In this document: one piece after another, positions 37,390-61,916 of the stretch
Layout: each line of letters opens with the position of its first letter
Position numbering within the stretch: the first letter of the stretch is position 1
Assembly (NCBI GenBank): GCA_947471505.1
Contig: CANIWM010000029.1
Location: 1 to 62,120 of the forward strand
DNA length: 62,120 bases
Direction of reading: 5' to 3'
Origin: Chthoniobacteraceae bacterium
GTDB lineage: Bacteria > Verrucomicrobiota > Verrucomicrobiia > Chthoniobacterales > Chthoniobacteraceae
Notes under the pieces: generated by a model
Told to the model about the DNA's origin: nothing
Seen by the model: the letters and a program-made list of their open reading frames with translations, nothing else
Database searches by the model: none
Translations under genes and position numbers: made by a program

Positions 37390-37747
37390 ATTATGGAAAT
37401 TACGGCGTTTGTATAGTTTTCTGTTTTCTTTGCAAGAAATATTTTATAGAAAATGCGAGGGTTTGAGAAGTTTTTAGTGGGTCTGTTTTTACATGGAAAG
37501 AAAATTGTTCAAAAAAAACACGGTTTTTTGGAGTGGGTCCGCCGGAGGAACTTTGATCCTGTTTTTTAAAAATCACTGAGCGGGCGATTCTGTGCTGATG
37601 CTTCGCTTCCGCCAGTCTGTGGTGTCAGTCTCGCCGGTCGTCCGCGCCGGGAATTTTTGGGATGCATGATTTCTATTGTCGTTTTACCCATTGCCGACTA
37701 GGACCATTGTAGCTGCGAAAGCAGATGAACTACGCTTTCCGCGTGGA
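37390..37747. other. AT-rich divergent intergenic region without a gene
   Basis: The gap between the divergent discoidin-like and pseudokinase genes is markedly AT-rich in its left two-thirds. It contains A- and T-tracts and a short A8-ACACGG-T6 stem, but no ORF with coding character, RNA gene or repeat that I recognise. It presumably holds the promoter of the export locus. Confidence 0.5.
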
Positions 37748-40700
37748 ATGCCCATTTCAACACAAGTCAACGATCAGCGCATACGAGCCGTGCAAGACGA
37801 AGCGAACTCTTTATCCAATCCAAGCCAAAACGCCTTTGTGGCAGGTCAGAAACTAGCAGGATGCTACGTCCTGAACCGCGAAATTTCGGGTGAGTCGGGT
37901 CTTGCCGTATGGCTTGCAAACGACGAAGTTTTGGGAAAAGAGGTATCGCTTCACTTTGTTCCAATGGCGATTTTGGACGATCAGCGAGGGATGGCAGAAC
38001 TGCGCCAGGAGGTGAAGCGAAATCGCCAATTGATTCATCCTCACATTCTCCGTGTGTATGATTTTGTCGAGGGAAGTGGTTTCGCGGCAGTGTCGATGGA
38101 TCGTTTTGATGGCGAGTCTCTGGAGTCTGTGTTGAAGCGGAAAGGCAGGTTCGAGCCGAGTGAGATCAAAGCGTGGTTTCAACAGCTTGCAGGGACCTTG
38201 GATGACGCGCATCGTGTGCAGTTGATTCATCGATATCTTGCGCCGTCGAACATTTACGTGCGGCCGAACGGGGGGCTCTTTGTCACAAATTTTGGAGTTG
38301 CACGGTGTATTCGTGACGCGATGGAGCGAACTCGTTCATTGTCACCCGATTCACTCCACATGGCCTATATGAGCCCGCAGCAGGTTGATGGGGAAAAGCC
38401 GACGAGGAGTGATGATATTTACGGGCTTGGAGTACTCGCGTGTGAGTTGCTTTCGGGGAAATTGCCGTTTTCCGGGTCTGATGTGGTGCCTGCGATTCGC
38501 ACGACGCCAGCACCGCGCGTTTCGGATTTGCTGGGAGCTCCGGTTGCTGCTGAGTGGGAAAGTTTTGTGGCGGCGTGCCTGGCGAAAGCGCCGGAGCAGC
38601 GCCCGGCAACGTGTGGTGCTGCGGTCGCCGTGATTCTTTCTAATGCCGGTCCTGCAGAGGCTGTTCCGTCTGCTCCGTCTGCTCCGATTAAGGAAGCGCC
38701 GCCTGTTGCTAAGGCAGAAGCGGAACCCGTGCAGCCCTCTGCACCTCCCCGTCCGGCGGCGATGCCTGCATCTGGGGCACCTGTTAAGAGCGGTGGTGCG
38801 GAGCGGCGGGTTTCTTTTGGTGGAAATACGGCGGCGCATTTCAGTCCGGCCCCGGTAACTGAGTCGCCAGAATTTGCGGCGATTAAAGACACGACCCTCC
38901 CGCCAGAACCAGTGCTCCCCGATAGCAATGCCACATCAAAGGCACAACAGGCTCCGCCTGCGCCGCCTGTAGCGCCTGCCAATCGGCAACCGGGACCGAA
39001 AGCCAATCTTTCCTCGAATTTTCCGGAGCTGTCTCGGCCTAAGTCAAAATGGCCCGTGGTAATGGCAGGGCTCGCCGTCGGTTTGGCCGCCTTTGCCGTG
39101 ATTAAGAAGATCAAGTCCGGGGATGCAAATGATGCTTTAGGTAACGTGTCGGCGGTGTCGCCCGATGTGAGTGGTGCTGTGGAGCCGCTTCCTCTGCCAA
39201 AGGGAGATTCGCAATTGCCGCCGCTTGATGGAAGTTTGCCCCCGCCAGTCCCCGCGAATGCCATCAATCAAAATCTGCCTCTTCCGGTGGAAAATGTCGT
39301 CGCCCTTCCGATTCCTGTCTCCACGCCGCCTGCACATCCCGCCGACATCTCGCCGACATCTCCCCTTCCGAGCCTGCCTGGTGATGAGCCGAACAAGGCG
39401 ACGGCGTCCGTTCCGAAGCCATCGAAACGGGAAATCATAGGAGCGAAAATTCCACCGAAAGTGGAGCCTGAAGCGCCTCCACAAGTGCCCACGAACCCTC
39501 CTAGCGTGAAAATCCCAACGTTACCGGTGGTTGGCGTGGCTGTGAAGCTGCCGCCGCTGCCCCAGATGCCTGTAAAATTGACGATTCCGCCGGGAGCGGA
39601 TGCTGCAGCGCTGGAAAAGTTGATCGCGGAGCGAAGCAATGTGGAAGTGTTGTTGAAACAGACCGTTGGCGAGGCCGAGCAGGCACAGCAGGAGATCCTG
39701 CACCTTTCGGACAACGCCAAAAAAGCGCAGGAGGACCTGCGCAAGACACTCGACGAGCGTAAAAAGGTGCTCTCGCCCATGCTGAAGGAAAATGACGCAT
39801 TGGTCGTAGAGCGGAAAAAACGCGAAGAAGAGGCGAGTCGGTCCGAAGCGCTGGCTCTTGAGGCGCGCAAGGTTGCGGATGCTGCGAAGACGGCCTACGA
39901 GACGCTCGTCCAGCAAGCCGCAGTAAAGCTCGAAGCAGCTAAGAAAGCCGATGAAGAACTGAGGGAGCTTGGCCAGAAAATCGTAGAGCAAGCAAAGCAA
40001 TCTGAAGAACTCGGCAAAAATCAAACGCAAGTCCTAGCGCTGCGTCAACAAGCAGCCATCGCACTTCAGCAAATCGAACGAGAAAGGGCGCTATTGAACG
40101 CAGCGGTCGAAAAAGCAAAAGCAGGCGCGCTTGAGGCAATGCGCATCCAAAACCAAGCGAAGATCGCAGACCTGCAGAAAAAAATCGCTCCGCTTGAGGC
40201 GGATATCAAGCGCTGTGAAGATGTCCTTGTTCGACTGAAGGACATTGGCGAAGCCGGAATCCCTGCCGCGAAGCCCATCTCCGAACGAATCGCCGCTACC
40301 AATGCTCAACTTAAAGCGTTGCGCGATGAAATCGCCCAACTTGGCGGTGCGAGCGTGCCGGTCAATGCAATCCCGCCAGTTCAGCCGCCCCCGCAGCCCC
40401 AGCCTCCGACACCTCAACCACTTCCAGCGAAGTCGGCGGCGACTACAAATGGTGCAAACACCATTGGGATGCGTTTTGTGAAGATCGACGATGTCGATTT
40501 TGCCGTGAATCTAGTGACTCGAAAGGATTATGAGGCTTTTGCGAATGAAAAGAAGCTGAAAGGTGGCAGTTGGCGCACTCCGGGATTTATCCAGGAGGAA
40601 GATCATCCCGTAGTGAACGTCACATGGAAAGAGGCGGATGCCTTTTGCAAGTGGCTCACCGAGAAGGAGCGGAAGGTGGGAGCTATCAAACCTACCGAAT

Positions 40701-41173
40701 TCTACCGACTTCCATCTGACATCGAGTGGAGTCGTGCTGTTGGACTGCCCCCGGAGAGCGGAGCCACGCCGGAAGATCGTGACTTGGGAGTGGATGGGGT
40801 ATTTCCTTGGGGCCTAGACTGGCCACCACCGGCGGGCGCGGGAAATTATGCGGGAGAGGAAACCAATTCAGAAGTGAAACTCCAAGGATACCGTGATGAC
40901 TTCCAATGGACTTCGCCGGTCGGGAAATTTAAGCCCAACGCATTTGGACTTAACGATATGGGTGGTAACGTCTGGCAATGGACGAACGATTATTTTAATG
41001 AGGCGAAAGAGAGTAAGGTGCTGCGGGGAGGTTCGTGGTACAATGGCGGAATCAAACCATCACTGCTCGCGTCGTGCCGATATAACGCGAAACCTGATGC
41101 CTGTAATGACACTTACGGCTTTCGAGTTGTAAGGGCCTCGGAGGGTGGCAAGTCGGCAGTCAAGCCGAAGTAG
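37748..41173 (+). CDS. Transmembrane pseudokinase fused to coiled coil and SUMF1-like domain
   Basis: A 1141-aa protein. Residues about 30-300 follow the Hanks-type Ser/Thr kinase fold (HPHILRVYDFVEGSG, SDDIYGLGVLACELLSGKLPF), but the catalytic residues are changed. The VAIK lysine is His69 (EVSLHFV), HRD is H161-R-Y163 (HRYLAPSN) and DFG is N181-FG. It should therefore not phosphorylate. Next come a Pro/Ala-rich linker, one membrane segment (about 435-453), a second Pro-rich stretch, a long coiled coil (about 620-880) and a C-terminal formylglycine-enzyme-like (SUMF1/PvdO/EgtB fold) domain (about 915-1130; PVVNVTWKEADAFCKWL, NAFGLNDMGGNVWQW, VLRGGSWY). The Cys pair of true FGEs is missing. 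The frame opens at a TTG at 37676, but the ATG at 37748 is the better start. It heads the export operon, so it may sense or scaffold across the inner membrane (inference). Confidence 0.85.
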   Translation: MPISTQVNDQRIRAVQDEANSLSNPSQNAFVAGQKLAGCYVLNREISGESGLAVWLANDEVLGKEVSLHFVPMAILDDQRGMAELRQEVKRNRQLIHPHILRVYDFVEGSGFAAVSMDRFDGESLESVLKRKGRFEPSEIKAWFQQLAGTLDDAHRVQLIHRYLAPSNIYVRPNGGLFVTNFGVARCIRDAMERTRSLSPDSLHMAYMSPQQVDGEKPTRSDDIYGLGVLACELLSGKLPFSGSDVVPAIRTTPAPRVSDLLGAPVAAEWESFVAACLAKAPEQRPATCGAAVAVILSNAGPAEAVPSAPSAPIKEAPPVAKAEAEPVQPSAPPRPAAMPASGAPVKSGGAERRVSFGGNTAAHFSPAPVTESPEFAAIKDTTLPPEPVLPDSNATSKAQQAPPAPPVAPANRQPGPKANLSSNFPELSRPKSKWPVVMAGLAVGLAAFAVIKKIKSGDANDALGNVSAVSPDVSGAVEPLPLPKGDSQLPPLDGSLPPPVPANAINQNLPLPVENVVALPIPVSTPPAHPADISPTSPLPSLPGDEPNKATASVPKPSKREIIGAKIPPKVEPEAPPQVPTNPPSVKIPTLPVVGVAVKLPPLPQMPVKLTIPPGADAAALEKLIAERSNVEVLLKQTVGEAEQAQQEILHLSDNAKKAQEDLRKTLDERKKVLSPMLKENDALVVERKKREEEASRSEALALEARKVADAAKTAYETLVQQAAVKLEAAKKADEELRELGQKIVEQAKQSEELGKNQTQVLALRQQAAIALQQIERERALLNAAVEKAKAGALEAMRIQNQAKIADLQKKIAPLEADIKRCEDVLVRLKDIGEAGIPAAKPISERIAATNAQLKALRDEIAQLGGASVPVNAIPPVQPPPQPQPPTPQPLPAKSAATTNGANTIGMRFVKIDDVDFAVNLVTRKDYEAFANEKKLKGGSWRTPGFIQEEDHPVVNVTWKEADAFCKWLTEKERKVGAIKPTEFYRLPSDIEWSRAVGLPPESGATPEDRDLGVDGVFPWGLDWPPPAGAGNYAGEETNSEVKLQGYRDDFQWTSPVGKFKPNAFGLNDMGGNVWQWTNDYFNEAKESKVLRGGSWYNGGIKPSLLASCRYNAKPDACNDTYGFRVVRASEGGKSAVKPK

Positions 41174-53554: not shown

Positions 53555-53732
53555 CTACCGCCGCAGCGCAACGATCAGCTCATTCACCTTCGCCAGGAGT
53601 TGAACGAAATCGTCCAACGTCGGCGGGTCGCTCAGCGCGAGCGACAACTCCGACACCGTAATCGGATTCTGCGCCGTCCCCGCGATCGCGCCCGCCAGCA
53701 TCGCGCTCGACACTTCCCCCGCCGCCCCCGCT
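53555..53732 (-). pseudogene. Frameshifted second copy of the collagen-like gene's C-terminal module
   Basis: Reading the minus strand one base out of frame from the preceding 101-aa gene gives GEVSSAMLAGAIAGTAQNP, then a stretch ending SLALSDPPTLDDFVQLL, and finally VNELIVALRR before a TAG at 53557-53555. This is clearly homologous to that gene's own C-terminus (GEVSNATLEAQIAGTAQNP, IALSDPPTRAEVQAILDFVN). There is no convincing start codon. Skipping one base near the end of the first copy would fuse both modules. It is a tandem duplication that has lost its frame, or a programmed frameshift, or a sequencing indel in the G-rich junction. Confidence 0.65.
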
Positions 53733-54036
53733 ACACCCGCGTCAGCGAATTCACCAGCGCGTTCACAAAATCGAGGATCGCCTGCACCTCCGCCCGCGTC
53801 GGCGGATCGCTCAGCGCGATGTTAAACGTGCCCACGTTCGGATTTTGCGCCGTCCCCGCGATCTGGGCCTCCAGCGTCGCGTTCGACACCTCACCCACCG
53901 GGCCAGCAGGCCCCGCAGGCCCCGCAGGCCCTGCAGGGATTGCGTCGATGAGCGTCTTTAGCGCGTTCAATTGATCGCGCATTTCCGCTGAGGAATTGGG
54001 CGAGCCGTTGGCTGGTTTAGTCGGATCAAATGGCAT
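53731..54036 (-). CDS. Small collagen-like protein of unknown function
   Basis: A 101-aa protein without a signal peptide. It has an N-terminal helical segment (SAEMRDQLNALKTLIDAIP), a short collagen-like Gly-Pro-Ala run (residues about 35-46) and a C-terminal module of about 50 residues (GEVSNATLEAQIAGTAQNP...DPPTRAEVQAILDFVNALVN). This layout resembles small trimerising or fibre-tip proteins, but I recognise no family. It lies 30 bp behind the Fn3-like gene on the same strand, so the two are probably co-transcribed. The frame stops at 53731 immediately before a second, out-of-frame copy of its C-terminal module. Confidence 0.6.
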   Translation of the reverse strand: MPFDPTKPANGSPNSSAEMRDQLNALKTLIDAIPAGPAGPAGPAGPVGEVSNATLEAQIAGTAQNPNVGTFNIALSDPPTRAEVQAILDFVNALVNSLTRV

Positions 54037-56157: not shown

Positions 56158-56418
56158 GGGATAAAAAGTGGACCACAGCGGAGACGCGGAGCGTACAAGG
56201 GGAGGGAATCAAACGCCGGAGGGTGGAAACGTTAATCGTTTGCTCACCGCGTCATTGAACTTCCGCCTTTTCAACCGCCGCACCGCCCGCCACTGTCGCC
56301 CCCGATGCCGAGCCAAAGAACCCACACCACGCAACCGCGCAAATACGCCCGCAATGCCGTGCCCGCGCGATTCGACATTCGCAATTCAGCATTCGGCATT
56401 CGCCCCGCCCACCAAAAC

Positions 56419-56545
56419 TGCGGCAACGGCACCATCTGGCACAACACCGGCAGGGGCAAGACGCCCACCTCCTTCAAAGCCTCCACTCTGCTTAAGGACA
56501 ACCCCGACATCGAGAAATCCCTCTTCGTCGTGGACCCCAAGGCCA
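56419..56545 (+). pseudogene. Fragment of a type I restriction enzyme R subunit (hsdR)
   Basis: In one frame the sequence reads [20 protein letters not shown] followed by [17 protein letters not shown]. This is the Walker A region of HsdR, where the family has a G-x-IWH-x-TGSGKT-x-TSFKA-x-LL run leading to FVVDR. About 40 residues remain; the Walker Ser is Arg, and homology stops on both sides with no HsdM or HsdS nearby. It is therefore a remnant. A short GCATTCGGCATTCG motif abuts it at 56389-56402. The helicase-nuclease gene starts about 60 bp downstream, suggesting replacement of an older restriction locus. Confidence 0.7.
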
Positions 56546-56603
56546 ACGGCCAAGACAAACGCTGTGACCCGCGTCGTAACCTTCACCTTTGGAGCGAAGC
56601 CGT

Positions 56604-59600
56604 ATGCCAGACGCAATAGTTCGACTGACCCAAGTTTTCAAATTCCTCAAGGAACTCAATGAGTTGAGGAATCCCGTTGCGCGGGATTTGTCGGGCTATA
56701 CGGAAGTGCTGCGTCTCGATGCGTGGCCTATGCACCCGTGCATCGTGGTGCGGCGTGGCGACCGTGTTGAAGAAGAGGACGCCGATGCCGAGGCTGAGAT
56801 GGAACCACTCATCCGAATCCAACGCGCACGTCTCACGCCTTGCCCGAAACCACCCGTCGCACTCGACGGCTGGCTAAAGCCGGGCTGGCAGGCGGCTGAT
56901 GCAGAAACGGCGGTGCTCGAATCGCGGAACTTCTTGGATGACCAGAAAAAGACCGTCACCGTTGAGTTTGCCGATGATGGTGAAAGAGTTGCGGCTTTGA
57001 ATGTTTGGAGTGTCGCGCGAACGAAGTGGTGTGTAGCCGAGCGACCAGCGATTGCGGCCCTGAAGGTTTTCGAGCGGATTCACACGCTGTGGAGTGCGAT
57101 GCAGCGCGAGGGCGACCGCGTCGAACTCGTCTTGGCAGATGGGATGCTCGCCGTGCCGTCGCAATCGGTGCGACATCCGGTGTTGATGCAGCGCATAAAT
57201 CTGGAGTTTGACCCATCGGTGCCGGAATTTCGTTTTGCGACAGGCACGGAAAAGGTGGAGCTGCATCGTGCGCTGCTTCGCTTGGTGCCGAGCATTGAGG
57301 GGCGAATGATTGCGCACTTCGACAAGGAGCTGGAATCGCAGCCAGTCGAGCCGCTCGGCGGTGACAGCGCAGCCGGATTCTTTTGCCGTCTCGTGCAGGG
57401 GCTTTTCAATGATGGCGAATTTCTCGATGAGAAATCGCGCGGTGGAGCGGATGACCGACCGAGCATTTGGCGCGAGCCCGTGATTTTTCTCCGCGCTCGC
57501 AATGCCGGATTGAGCACCACGCTGGATAACATCATCGAGGATTTGGAAGACGAGGAAACTGAACCGCCGAGAGGGTTGTCGCGCATCGTCGGCGTCGAAG
57601 CCGACGAGGATGAGCCGGGGATGAGCGGAAACGGCGATGACGAGACACGGCGCACGCCCCCGAAGCCAACGCCCGACATTCTTTTCAGCAAGCCTGCGAA
57701 CGCGGAGCAGTATGAAATCGCGGAGCGACTGGCACAGTCGGATGCCGTGCTTGTGCAAGGCCCGCCGGGCACGGGCAAGACCCATACGATTGCCAACCTG
57801 CTCGGCTACTTGCTGGCACAAGGCAAGACGGTGCTCGTGACCGCGCACACCACGAAGGCGCTGCGCGTGTTGCGGCGGCAAGTAGATGAGGCACTGCAAC
57901 CTCTGTGCTTGAGCGTGCTTGAGGGCGACGCCGACAGTCAGGCGCAACTCTCCCGTGCGGCACAGGAAATCGCCGACCGGCTCTCGCGCTCAAACGCGGC
58001 GAGTCTGCGGCGCGAGGCCGGTGTGCTCCGCGACAAGCGGCGAAAGATGCTCGACGTGGCGGCGGCTTTGCGTCGCCAACTCCGCGATGCGCGATTCAGT
58101 GAGGTGGAGGAAATCGTTCTCGGCGGCGAAGGAATGAGTCCCATCGAAGTCGCCAAGCGTGTGAAGGCGGACGCGGAGCGCGACGGCTGGATTCCCGGCC
58201 CGATTCAACCCGGTGTGACGTGCCCGCTCTCGGACGCGGAACTTCGTCAACTCTACGCGACAAACGCGACGCTCACGCCATCGGACGAAACACAACTTGC
58301 GGTTTCGCAGCCCGTGCTCGCGGATTTGGTTTCGTCGGCAGACTTTCGTTTGCTCGCAAACGAGCAGGCCGGAGCGGATTCGCGCGCGCAAGCGCATCGC
58401 CCGGAATTGTGGAGCGACGGCGCTGCCGCAGGCTACGCCGCGACGCACCTTCAAGAGCTTCATCAGCGCGTGTGTGCGGCTGCTGGCGTGCTTGCAGAGG
58501 AGCAGAACTGGCTGCGTGAAGTCCTTTTTGCCGGATGGATGGGCGGCGATTTGCGCGGCGCTTGGAATGATTTGCTCGCCGCCGCGCACGCTCTGGCGAG
58601 CGAGGCGGGCACTGCACACCGGCTTATCATGGAGCACGGGCCGGAGTTGCCCAACGCTCAACCCGCCTCCGCAATGGCGGCAACACTCAACGCGATTATC
58701 TCGCACTTAGAATCCGGGGGTTCGCTCGGATTGATGACCAAGCTACGCCATCGCGACTGGCATCAACTCATTGACGCCTGCCGAGTGGAGAACCGCGTGC
58801 CGACGACGCCAGATGAATTTCGCGCACTGCGCGCCCTCGCACAGTTACAAGAAAGTCGCAGCCGGTTTGTCGCACGTTGGCGGCGGGGCGTGGAAAGTCT
58901 CGGCGGCCCGCAAATTGAGAGCGTGGCCAGCTCCCCCGAGCGCGCGGCGCAAGGTTATGCAGCAGAGATTCGCAGTCGCTTGGAATGGCGCGAAACCGTT
59001 TGGGAACCGTTGACCGACGAATTGTGCGCAGTCGGATTCCGCTGGGATGCTTGGCTGGCGGCGCACCCGCCCGTGCCTGGCGACCACGGCGAACTCGCGC
59101 GAGTGCAGCGCGCCGGCTCGCAAGGGCTGGCGGAAATCGTCGAGGCGCAAGCTGCTTTGCTGCGACAGGCAGAGCTATCGGCGGCGTTGCAAAATCAGCG
59201 CGCGTATCTCGCCGGGTTCCCGCAAAGCGATGCCGCCTCGGTGTTGCTCACTGCGCAAGACTCATGGGACGTGGAGAACTACGAGGAAGCCTGCCGAGAA
59301 ATCGCCCGGCTCAAAGGTTTGCGCGACGCCTACGATACTCGTCTGGCTTTGCTTGCGCGAGTCGAGGAGGTCGCGCCCGCGTGGTCACACGCCATCGTGC
59401 AACGGCACAAGCCACACGACGGCGCGCAGCCACCGGGCGACGCAATCGCAGCTTGGCGTTGGCGGCAGTGGAATCAGGAACTCGAAAGACGGGCTGCGGT
59501 TTCGATGCCGGAGCTACAAGAACGGCTCGACAAAACGGAGGACGAGTTGCGGCGTGTGGCCGCACAAATCATTGAGCACGAGACGTGGGCCGCGCAGCGC

Positions 59601-61916
59601 GAACGAACCGGCCTTCAAGGGCAGCAAGCGTTGATGGGTTTCGTTCAAACGATTCGCAAAATCGGCAAAGGCACCGGAAAACGAGTGCCGGAACTCCTCC
59701 GTCAAGCTCGGCAACTACTCGCGTCCGCCCGCCGCGCAGTGCCCGTGTGGATTATGCCGCTGAGTCGTGTGTATGAGAGCTTCGACGCACGCGAAACGAA
59801 GTTCGATGTCGTCATCATTGACGAAGCGAGCCAGAGCGATGTGACCGCGCTTGCCGCGCTCTATCTCGGGCGCGAGCACATCGTTGTGGGCGACAAGGAG
59901 CAGGTGACCCCCGATGCCGTCGGGCAGCGCATTGACGATGTTCAACGCCTCATCGCCACCGACCTGCATGGAATTCCATGCAGCCATCTCTACGACGGGC
60001 AGACTTCGATTTACGACCTCGCGGAGCAGGCGTTCGGCGGCGTGGTCGCGTTGCGGGAGCATTTCCGTTGCGTGCCGGAAATCATCCAATTCAGCAATCA
60101 CCTCTCCTACAAAACCATCGTGCCGCTGCGCGAACCCCACTCCGCACCCGTGAAGCCCGCGATGGTCGCGCATCGCGTGAACGGATTTCGAGATGAGCGC
60201 GGCAAGACCAATGAAGTCGAGGCGGAGGAGATCGCATCGCTCGTTATCGCCTGCATCGGCGAACCCGACTACGCGCGAAACGATTTCGGTCAGGCAACGA
60301 GTTTTGGCGTGATTTCACTTCTTGGAGACGAGCAAGCACTGGTCATCGAAAACATCCTGCGGATCCGACTGTCGCCGGATGTTTTTGCCAAGCATCGGCT
60401 GCTCTGCGGAAACGCCGCGCAATTTCAAGGCGACGAACGCGACGTTGTTTTCCTTTCGATGGTGGATGGCCCGCCTGACGATGGACAACTCTCCTTCCGC
60501 GACGCCGGGCCAAAAGACCTCTACAAGAAGCGATACAACGTCGCCGTGAGCCGTGCGCGTAATCAGCTTTGGGTTGTCCATTCGATAGACCCCGACACCC
60601 ATCTCAAAGGCGGCGACCTTCGCCGTCGGCTCATTGAGCACGCCCGCGATCCGCAGGCGCTTATGCGTGCGATGGAGGAACAGGGCAACCGGACGGATTC
60701 CATTTTTGAAAAGCTCGTGCTCCAACGCCTCATCAGCGCCGGCTATCGTGTGCATCCGCAATGGCCGGTTGGAGCGCGCCGGATTGATCTCGTTGTCGAG
60801 GGCAAAACCAAACGCCTCGCCGTCGAGTGCGACGGCGAGAGATGGCACACGCCTGAACAACTCCACCAGGACCTCGAACGCCAATCCATTCTCGAACGTC
60901 TCGGTTGGATATTCGTTCGCATACGCGGAAGTGTTTTCTTCCGCGATCCTGACACTGCGATGGCGCCCGTGTTTGCTAAGCTGAAGCACCTCGACATCGA
61001 ACCATTGGGGGCGGCCTCAGATTCGCCTTCAACGAAGGAAACGCCGATGCTTGATCGTGTAAGGCGGCAGGCAGAGGCGATACGCGAGAGGTGGCGAATA
61101 GAAAGAATGTCACAGGAAGAACCTGACGCGGATTCCGTTCGCTCCGCGCCCCCCGCGCATCGGAATACAGCCCCTCTCGTCCGCGCGGAGCCCATCGGCC
61201 AAACAATCTCACTCCCTCCTCGGAATATGGTGCAATCTGCACCAAAGGTCGAAGTAGGCGACTCGGTCCGCTACCGCTATACGGACGCTCCGGGCGACGA
61301 GTTGTTTCACATGATTGTGGATTCAGAATCCAAACCCGACTTGGGTCTGATTAACCGGGATACCGTCGTCGCGAGAGCATTGCTCGGATTGGAAGTGGGA
61401 CAAGTGCGAGAGGTGTTTCTTCCGAGTGGCGCTAGAAGGTTAGAGGTGACAGAGCTCCGAAAGCACCAAACTCAGGGTGCTCCTCCGCCAGGCGGTGCGG
61501 ATGACTTTCGACTGGTGACTGAAATCAACGAAGGTTTTGGTGAGGATGATCGAAACGCAAACAACGAGGGTGCAACGCGTAGTGGCCAGCTAACGCTCAA
61601 GGGCCAAACATTCGCGTATAGAAATGCGAAGGAAGGGATGCTCATCGTGCTCCGGGAGTTAGCCGCCGCTGATTCAACTCTTCTTCAAAAGTGCGCCATT
61701 CATCCCGATGCCCAAGGGCAGACGAGGCGATATATTGCGCGAACCGCGGCAGAATTGTATCCAAACCGACCCGATTTGTGGAGGCACAACGAGCCGCTAC
61801 CCGGCGGGTGGTTGGTCGCGACAAATCTCAACAATGATCTGAAACTCAAGATCGTCCGCTTAGCCGCCAAGCTAGCAGGCCTGAATTTAGGAAATGATCT
61901 TGTCGTTGATTTCTAG
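56604..61916 (+). CDS. Giant SF1 helicase - Vsr/MTES_1575-like nuclease - GreA-C-like fusion, putative defence protein
   Basis: A 1770-aa cytoplasmic protein. The N-terminal 350 residues are unrecognised. An SF1 (AAA_11/AAA_12, Dna2/Upf1-like) helicase follows, with Walker A GPPGTGKT (386-393), a long helical insertion of about 650 residues, Walker B VVIIDEAS (about 1070), GDKEQVTP (about 1096) and late motifs [14 protein letters not shown] and [18 protein letters not shown]. Residues about 1368-1460 are a PD-(D/E)xK nuclease of the DUF559/MTES_1575/Vsr type (RRIDLVV about 1394, [11 protein letters not shown] about 1408). Residues about 1549-1620 resemble the GreA/GreB C-terminal domain ([38 protein letters not shown]). 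An unrecognised domain (about 1660-1770; [22 protein letters not shown]) ends it. The frame opens at a TTG (56589); I use the ATG at 56604. Helicase-Vsr fusions are known antiphage proteins; a defence role is inference. Confidence 0.8.

Follow-up and report, generated by a model that had tools for sequence, protein, structure and literature searches.

A single-protein helicase-Vsr nuclease with a GreA/GreB C-terminal domain and a SeqA-like end in a Chthoniobacteraceae bacterium

Defence nucleases known so far recognise an invader by its sequence or modification, by DNA ends or by intermediates of replication. Among the closest described systems, Hhe unites in one polypeptide a superfamily 1 (SF1) helicase, a restriction endonuclease of the MTES_1575/Vsr type and a C-terminal domain, and for related giants composed of HEPN, SF-I helicase and Vsr parts it has been proposed that invader DNA is recognised through C-terminal winged helix-turn-helix (wHTH) domains (PMC3710099, in excerpt). 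Here we describe a gene for a 1770-aa protein of comparable build in the draft genome of a Chthoniobacteraceae bacterium (assembly GCA_947471505.1); the whole stretch of DNA analysed, contig CANIWM010000029.1 with its 62,120 bases, is called the window, and the product of the gene the window protein. In place of the wHTH/DUF3320 tail of the giants (PMC3710099, in excerpt), it carries the C-terminal domain of GreA/GreB (Gre-C) and, behind it, a domain that by its predicted fold resembles the C-terminal domain of SeqA.

An earlier note on this DNA had proposed a kinship to single-protein helicase-Vsr defence proteins, which was borne out by matches in the PADLOC and NCBIfam libraries. Hhe was matched at 114.3 bits (PADLOC) and 155.2 bits (NCBIfam), the latter against a cut-off of 2000 for NF042953, and it differs also in that the N-terminal part of the window protein (residues 1-360) gave zero Pfam families at E up to 10. 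The best NCBIfam match, extending over much of the protein, was ProA (NF058533; 225.1 bits, cut-off 1500), and the PADLOC candidate PDC-S37, which has no curated cut-off, was matched at 217.6 bits by hmmscan; in a genome scan for PDC-S37 the window reached 160.9 bits, whereas the highest-scoring places among 288 genomes of the phylum reached 1069-1834 bits. The protein was not assigned to Hhe or ProA proper, the scores being far below the cut-offs, and a place in PDC-S37 proper, whose best members score far higher, is doubtful. Judged by sequence, the core is of a kind already known from these relatives, and the unusual part is the recurrent tail.

Both C-terminal domains have counterparts in other settings. 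GreA, GreB, Gfh1 and Rnk share the C-terminal globular domain, which here is only a part of a 1770-aa helicase-nuclease; HelD is a motor protein with a Gre-C-matching part as well, near the N-terminus in HelD and C-terminal in the window protein; and SeqA is alike in fold to the last domain, which here is fused to a nuclease. The earlier note had known of no helicase-Vsr protein with a Gre domain. None is described in the titles, abstracts and passages of open-licence PubMed Central papers that were consulted, and neither is a SeqA-like domain behind restriction nucleases. The note had missed the recurrence of Gre-C tails in other lineages and their apparent exchange between cores.

Domains of the window protein

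The open reading frame (ORF) starts with an ATG at 56604, ends at 61916 on the forward strand and has zero internal stops. It lies near the right end of the contig, with 204 bases remaining on the 3' side, and is the single match to the 1770-aa protein in its own genome (6.07 Mb, 153 contigs). Its features are given below; G and L numbers, here and later, denote genomes and loci.

56604..61916, + strand: whole gene, intact frame of 1770 aa; a TTG at 56589 is an alternative start
56604..57683, + strand: N-terminal region, residues 1-360, which aligns with the N-terminus of the full-length homologue G032/L022
57699..58067, + strand: first RecA-like part of the SF1 helicase, AAA_11, residues 366-488 (Pfam 62.8 bits, cut-off 27)
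57759..57782, + strand: Walker A, GPPGTGKT, residues 386-393 (GPPGTGK followed by T or S in 49 of 49 aligned rows, window included)
59820..59831, + strand: Walker B, DEAS, residues 1073-1076 (kept in 49 of 49 rows)
60036..60581, + strand: second RecA-like part of the SF1 helicase, AAA_12, residues 1145-1326 (Pfam 39.3 bits, cut-off 27)
60705..60983, + strand: MTES_1575/Vsr-like PD-(D/E)xK nuclease (PF18741), residues 1368-1460 (102.5 bits, E 1.4e-29, cut-off 38.2)
60786..60836, + strand: nuclease core, D1395...E1408-C-D-G1411 (sequence and alignment)
61239..61457, + strand: GreA/GreB C-terminal domain (PF01272), residues 1546-1618 (34.9 bits, E 1.6e-8, cut-off 26.9; fold match)
61593..61913, + strand: SeqA C-terminal-like domain, residues about 1664-1770 (weak by sequence, clear by fold)

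On the combined evidence of profiles and a predicted structure, the window protein carries a true GreA/GreB C-terminal domain. In addition to the Pfam match, when solved structures were searched with a profile of fused and two cellular Gre-C sequences, E. coli GreA came out on top (E 3.1e-10). Residues 1534-1623 (90 residues) were modelled with AlphaFold2 from a six-sequence alignment (mean pLDDT 83.6), and the fourteen best Foldseek matches of this model were GreA, Gfh1, GreB, Rnk and other Gre-family structures, the first at E 8.9e-7. VIA-align gave Z 13.0 and 12.1 for the GreA chains 9a7t_B and 1grj, Z 10.5-11.8 for Gfh1 chains and a GreA/Gfh1 chimera, 9.7 for GreB and 8.9 for Rnk, and the superposition on the GreA C-terminal fold that the earlier note had anticipated was thus obtained at Z 12-13. 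A chance match as the origin of the Gre-C hit was rejected, as profile, fold and relatives agree.

The part behind Gre-C had been called unrecognised; an extra domain is indeed located there, and it turned out to be recognisable, its modelled fold being that of a SeqA C-terminal-like domain. By sequence the likeness is weak: Pfam SeqA (PF03925) stayed below its cut-off of 25.5 bits both in the window (15.7 bits) and in a relative from G294 (18.3 bits), and the best solved structure for a four-sequence profile was SeqA, with E 0.14. The domain was aligned and folded separately from Gre-C (residues 1640-1770, 15 sequences, pLDDT 84.8), and the top five Foldseek matches of the model were all SeqA, with E from 6.1e-4 (3fmt_B) to 8.0e-3. 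VIA scores to SeqA chains were Z 10.2-11.5 over 98-104 aligned residues, the best superposition being that on 1lrr_A (Z 11.5, rmsd 2.5, 103 aligned), and the next unrelated chain scored Z 3.8. The GxxRxY and TNxN segments align with SeqA, and all 15 rows agree in their G, R, Y, T and first N.

This SeqA-like domain was found in 15 of 384 genomes of the class, own genome included, and when residues 1510-1770 were compared with 387 genomes of the phylum it was present in five, own included, a sixth match being to the Gre part. Elsewhere, in nearly all the ORFs inspected, it is located C-terminal to an HsdR_N-like nuclease (by eye); these ORFs were frames of about 280-690 aa, of which one has an internal stop and one is cut short, and a small remnant was seen as well. 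The one such protein that was scanned, that of G294, matched Pfam HSDR_N at 32.3 bits (cut-off 25.1). It lies between hsdR and hsdS in a type I restriction operon (L029, 4368-13265); a gene for an AAA_21/AbiEii-type ATPase, hsdM and a phage-type integrase gene are located close by.

The helicase and nuclease assignments of the earlier note held in full. GPPGTGKT, DEAS and a motif VI-like YNVAVSRAR (residues 1311-1319, inside the AAA_12 part) are present, so that Walker A, Walker B and the late SF1 motif are intact, and AAA_11 and AAA_12 each score above their cut-offs, as does the PD-(D/E)xK nuclease. Among solved structures the top sequence matches of the helicase were Sen1. The conservation counts refer to a 49-row core set (window, G032 protein, two plasmid proteins and 45 from a scan of genome contigs), in which the two acidic residues of the nuclease are kept in 46 rows, L038, L041 and L045 departing from the pattern (by eye).

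A variable C-terminus and a recurrent Gre-C tail

Alignment with homologues places the core among the single-protein helicase-Vsr nucleases, a family with a varying C-terminus. The scan of genome contigs, for which the window protein and a homologue served as queries, found at least 361 relatives, of which the best 80 were kept. Many homologues stop right after the nuclease, and G032/L022, 30% identical to the window protein over the whole length, ends shortly after it. Other ends are wHTH-like (L036; 22.6 bits, cut-off 27) or DUF3320-like, the latter common to L079, L098, L050 and L101 (L079 at E 0.041, below the cut-off; the others by eye). Gre-C ends were found in L057 (34.1 bits), L069 (33.4 bits) and L070 (26.4 bits, just short of the PF01272 cut-off of 26.9).

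A Gre-C profile, whose members were the window, L057, L069, L070 and two GreA rows (all matching by construction), was run over 13,293 ORFs of at least 60 aa and found, beyond its own members, L152 on a Microvirga ossetica plasmid (E 1.2e-6). Among 213 genomes of the order there were a full-length Gre-tailed protein (L177 in G588, 1703 aa) and a C-terminal remnant (L176 in G623), whose Gre-C domains were assigned by alignment to that of the window (E 5e-25 and 8e-19, respectively); Gre-C is absent from the ends of the relatives in G760, G032 and G648. At least seven Gre-tailed proteins are therefore at hand: window, L177, L176 (truncated), L057, L152, L069 and L070. They come from Pseudomonadota (L057, L152), Actinomycetota (L069) and Bacteroidota (L070), in addition to the order of the window, and of the seven only the window protein carries the SeqA-like domain.

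The distribution is patchy, in agreement with the earlier note's view that this is not a universal housekeeping gene. Some part of the protein was matched in 15 of 57 kin genomes (own included), only the own genome and G032 being matched over residues 339-1471, and some part of residues 1260-1770 was matched in 17 of the 213 genomes from the order (own included). This patchy spread, together with the truncated copy, is the pattern of an accessory gene. Residues 1510-1770 found no match in plasmid or phage collections (E limit 0.01), and viral contigs held no relative of the Gre-C part, for which a single-sequence query reaching only close relatives was used, or of the SeqA-like profile; the plasmid-borne, Gre-tailed L152 was found with the whole protein as query.

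In a tree of the 49 cores, 5 changes are required to explain the presence of Gre-C in five rows and its absence from the other 44, and a single Gre clade was rejected (AU p 2e-77); the changes were counted against all 44 other rows, 34 unlabelled ones included, and the tree had already been seen when the AU test was made. When L177, L178 and L179 were added in a quick tree of 52 rows, six Gre rows needed 6 changes, with L177 falling apart from the window in a 15-row branch rich in Pseudomonadota. Change counts alone do not separate gains from losses; the Gre-C tails of several bacterial groups were apparently gained in separate events. The tail also seems to have been exchanged between cores as a module, because the window core is nearer to L176 (nuclease region 81% identical, Gre-C 41%) and its Gre-C nearer to L177 (nuclease region 47%, Gre-C 52%). 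The three tails of the order look like a Gre-C line of their own, since they are 37-50% identical to each other and in the same matrix only 18-27% to two GreA proteins of the order. This trio excepted, Gre-C domains of separate lineages are only 11-31% identical.

Further ends were observed in the family. In six Firmicutes loci (L037, L039, L040, L044, L046 and L049) the nuclease is followed by a small common domain with a GGxLWVxGG...PGWW-like pattern (by eye), which in L044 matched no Pfam family under E 0.1. In Actinoplanes and Paractinoplanes the helicase-nuclease ORF continues in frame into an arginase-like domain (L090, 6066-11327; L065, 6993-12878), with a Pfam E of 1e-33 in L090 and a similar appearance by eye in L065. 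Finally, L069 (4914-10637, Streptomyces diastatochromogenes) shows before its Gre-C a charged helix-like stretch reminiscent of a coiled coil (by eye), for which no Pfam match was found.

Genomic neighbourhood

Directly upstream of the gene there is a fragment of a restriction-type helicase gene.

56383..56541, + strand: restriction-type helicase fragment (ResIII, Walker A region; E 9.3e-7, 29.3 bits, cut-off 22.5, profile positions 20-63 of 164)

The fragment suggests a decayed restriction locus; a derivation from an hsdR like that of L029 was dropped (tblastn best E 0.84). Further upstream lies a helix-turn-helix gene on the opposite strand (34.1 bits), and the other upstream genes are ordinary-looking, such as a sulfatase-like and a 4-alpha-glucanotransferase-like gene (both below NCBIfam cut-offs). 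Two more ORFs of the window were noted: one of 1165 aa at 37676-41173 joins a protein kinase domain and an FGE-sulfatase (sulfatase-modifying factor-like) domain, and a small one at 53731-54036 on the reverse strand contains a collagen-like run, GPAGPAGPAGPVG.

The earlier note had asked whether homologues sit in defence islands. Defence genes are neighbours of some Gre-less relatives, and the context of the Gre-tailed ones is weaker. A Gre-less relative on the Acinetobacter plasmid p3ABAYE adjoins the BREX genes pglZ and brxL, L035 lies near BrxA/BrxB and DUF2397/DUF2399 genes, and L036 near an SNF2 helicase. Neighbouring ORFs were also picked mechanically (at most two on each side, 120-1000 aa, longer ones dropped), which yielded 147 ORFs from 44 of the 46 loci with coordinates (L022 was left out and L039 gave none), with no control set. 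The families listed for them, 25 of 105 in PADLOC and 25 of 136 in Pfam, are families rather than counts of defence neighbours, and they included PglZ, BrxA, JetA/JetD, DrmA/DrmD, a type I methylase, TOTE primase and Mrr, as well as ordinary genes, among them LysR, MFS, AMP-binding, RecA and EF-Tu-type ones. We take the PADLOC labels Jet and Drm to stand for Wadjet and DISARM, respectively.

Proposed function and its alternatives

A defence role is our best guess for the helicase-nuclease family as a whole. For the window protein we tentatively favour, at somewhat less than an even chance, a stand-alone anti-invader nuclease that docks on RNA polymerase (RNAP); both docking and defence are inferred. 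Gre globular domains bind RNAP (PMC4598747, in excerpt), their binding site being the beta' rim helices (PMC7527559, in excerpt), and wHTH tails have been proposed to find invader DNA; for these reasons the C-terminal slot could be regarded as the address of the machine. Gre-C would direct the protein to RNAP, and the SeqA-like domain would contact DNA and possibly sense its adenine-methylation state as a second check. After ATP-driven translocation the Vsr-like nuclease would then cut an unmarked or wrongly marked template under transcription, the result being a restriction steered by transcription. In sister proteins the targeting job probably falls to wHTH or other C-terminal domains. In its full form, transcription-coupled restriction, in which Gre-C was repeatedly captured as a swappable RNAP tag, a SeqA-like methylation reader was added, and cutting depends on two things, an active transcription complex and a wrong mark, the proposal is rather unlikely.

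Several observations weigh against a docking defence nuclease. The N-terminal coiled-coil half of Gre factors was not detected by Pfam in the whole protein (25 of 27 families listed, the other two ranking below E 0.12), residues 1510-1770 matched no Gre N-terminal family at E up to 10, and what precedes Gre-C (residues about 1470-1545) shows by eye a proline-rich linker and, as its only helix-like element, a short charged stretch, so that a coiled coil before the C-terminal domain, as in a whole Gre factor, is not seen in the window protein. Both GreA domains are seemingly required for specific RNAP binding, and a change of GreA S121 to P impairs binding (PMC7527559, in excerpt); the window protein has N at the position of S121 and T at that of S124 (mapped by eye). 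The Gre tail occurs in 3 of the best 80 contig-scan loci, most homologues being without it. BREX- and DISARM-type neighbours, where they could be placed, belong to Gre-less relatives. The Gre-tailed members have a weak defence context: L057 has DUF4411 and IrrE/HTH genes alongside, L070 has a DprA gene and L152 a gene for a CBM-bearing protein nearby, and the neighbours of L069 and L177 are ordinary-looking (by eye). As to the methylation check, the host genome has 0 matches to PF02086 (Dam-type methylase) at E 1e-5, so that hemimethylation of GATC, known from E. coli, does not readily suggest itself as the signal; since there are three N6_Mtase (PF02384) matches, any mark is less likely to be GATC than an N6_Mtase site.

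The same protein could be a defence nuclease in which Gre-C is merely a general FKBP-like module for protein or nucleic-acid interaction, for example in oligomerisation or in binding a phage protein, with no dock on RNAP. This would fit with the missing coiled coil, with the low identity of Gre-C between lineages and with a fold common to Gre-C, SlyD, trigger factor and FKBPs, the FKBP-type folds (trigger factor, SlyD, FKBPs) also matching the Gre-C model at Z up to 8.0, which is a further point against a specific RNAP dock. The first-ranked fold and sequence matches, however, all belong to the Gre family (GreA, Gfh1, Rnk, GreB), and the Pfam GreA_GreB cut-off is passed by the window, L057 and L069 and just missed by L070; we regard a generic module as somewhat unlikely.

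Two other explanations start from the motor. A housekeeping factor which clears or recycles stalled RNAP, like HelD or Sen1/Mfd, with a nuclease acting in repair, could explain why several Gre-tailed members have ordinary-looking neighbours; HelD is itself an RNAP-bound motor whose N-terminal domain enters the secondary channel (PMC11464796, in excerpt), its residues 100-174 (6wvk_H) match the Gre-C model at Z 7.2, and Sen1 is the top solved helicase match. Because the clearest defence neighbours are those of Gre-less relatives, we lowered our confidence in a defence nuclease docking on RNAP, and also in transcription-coupled restriction, and raised it in this housekeeping role, which is nevertheless improbable in view of the patchy distribution, the truncated copy in G623, the plasmid-borne relatives and the defence neighbours of Gre-less relatives. 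The Sen1 match would also suit an effector directed at transcripts, which would turn its motor and Vsr-like nuclease on RNA or R-loops emerging from the polymerase and shut the cell down instead of cutting invader DNA, and some PD-(D/E)xK nucleases do show RNase activity (PMC11090510, in excerpt). Such an effector is very improbable, as the Vsr domain of these proteins is called a DNase (PMC3710099, in excerpt) and the SeqA-like domain points to double-stranded DNA.

As the SeqA-like domain is found behind restriction-type nucleases, the DNA-reading fold of SeqA probably has uses beyond replication control. If the docking of the window protein on RNAP as a defence nuclease is true, a nuclease addressed to RNA polymerase would represent a different way of finding invaders, and because the Gre-C tail is recurrent and modular, the idea of an RNAP address can be put to the test.

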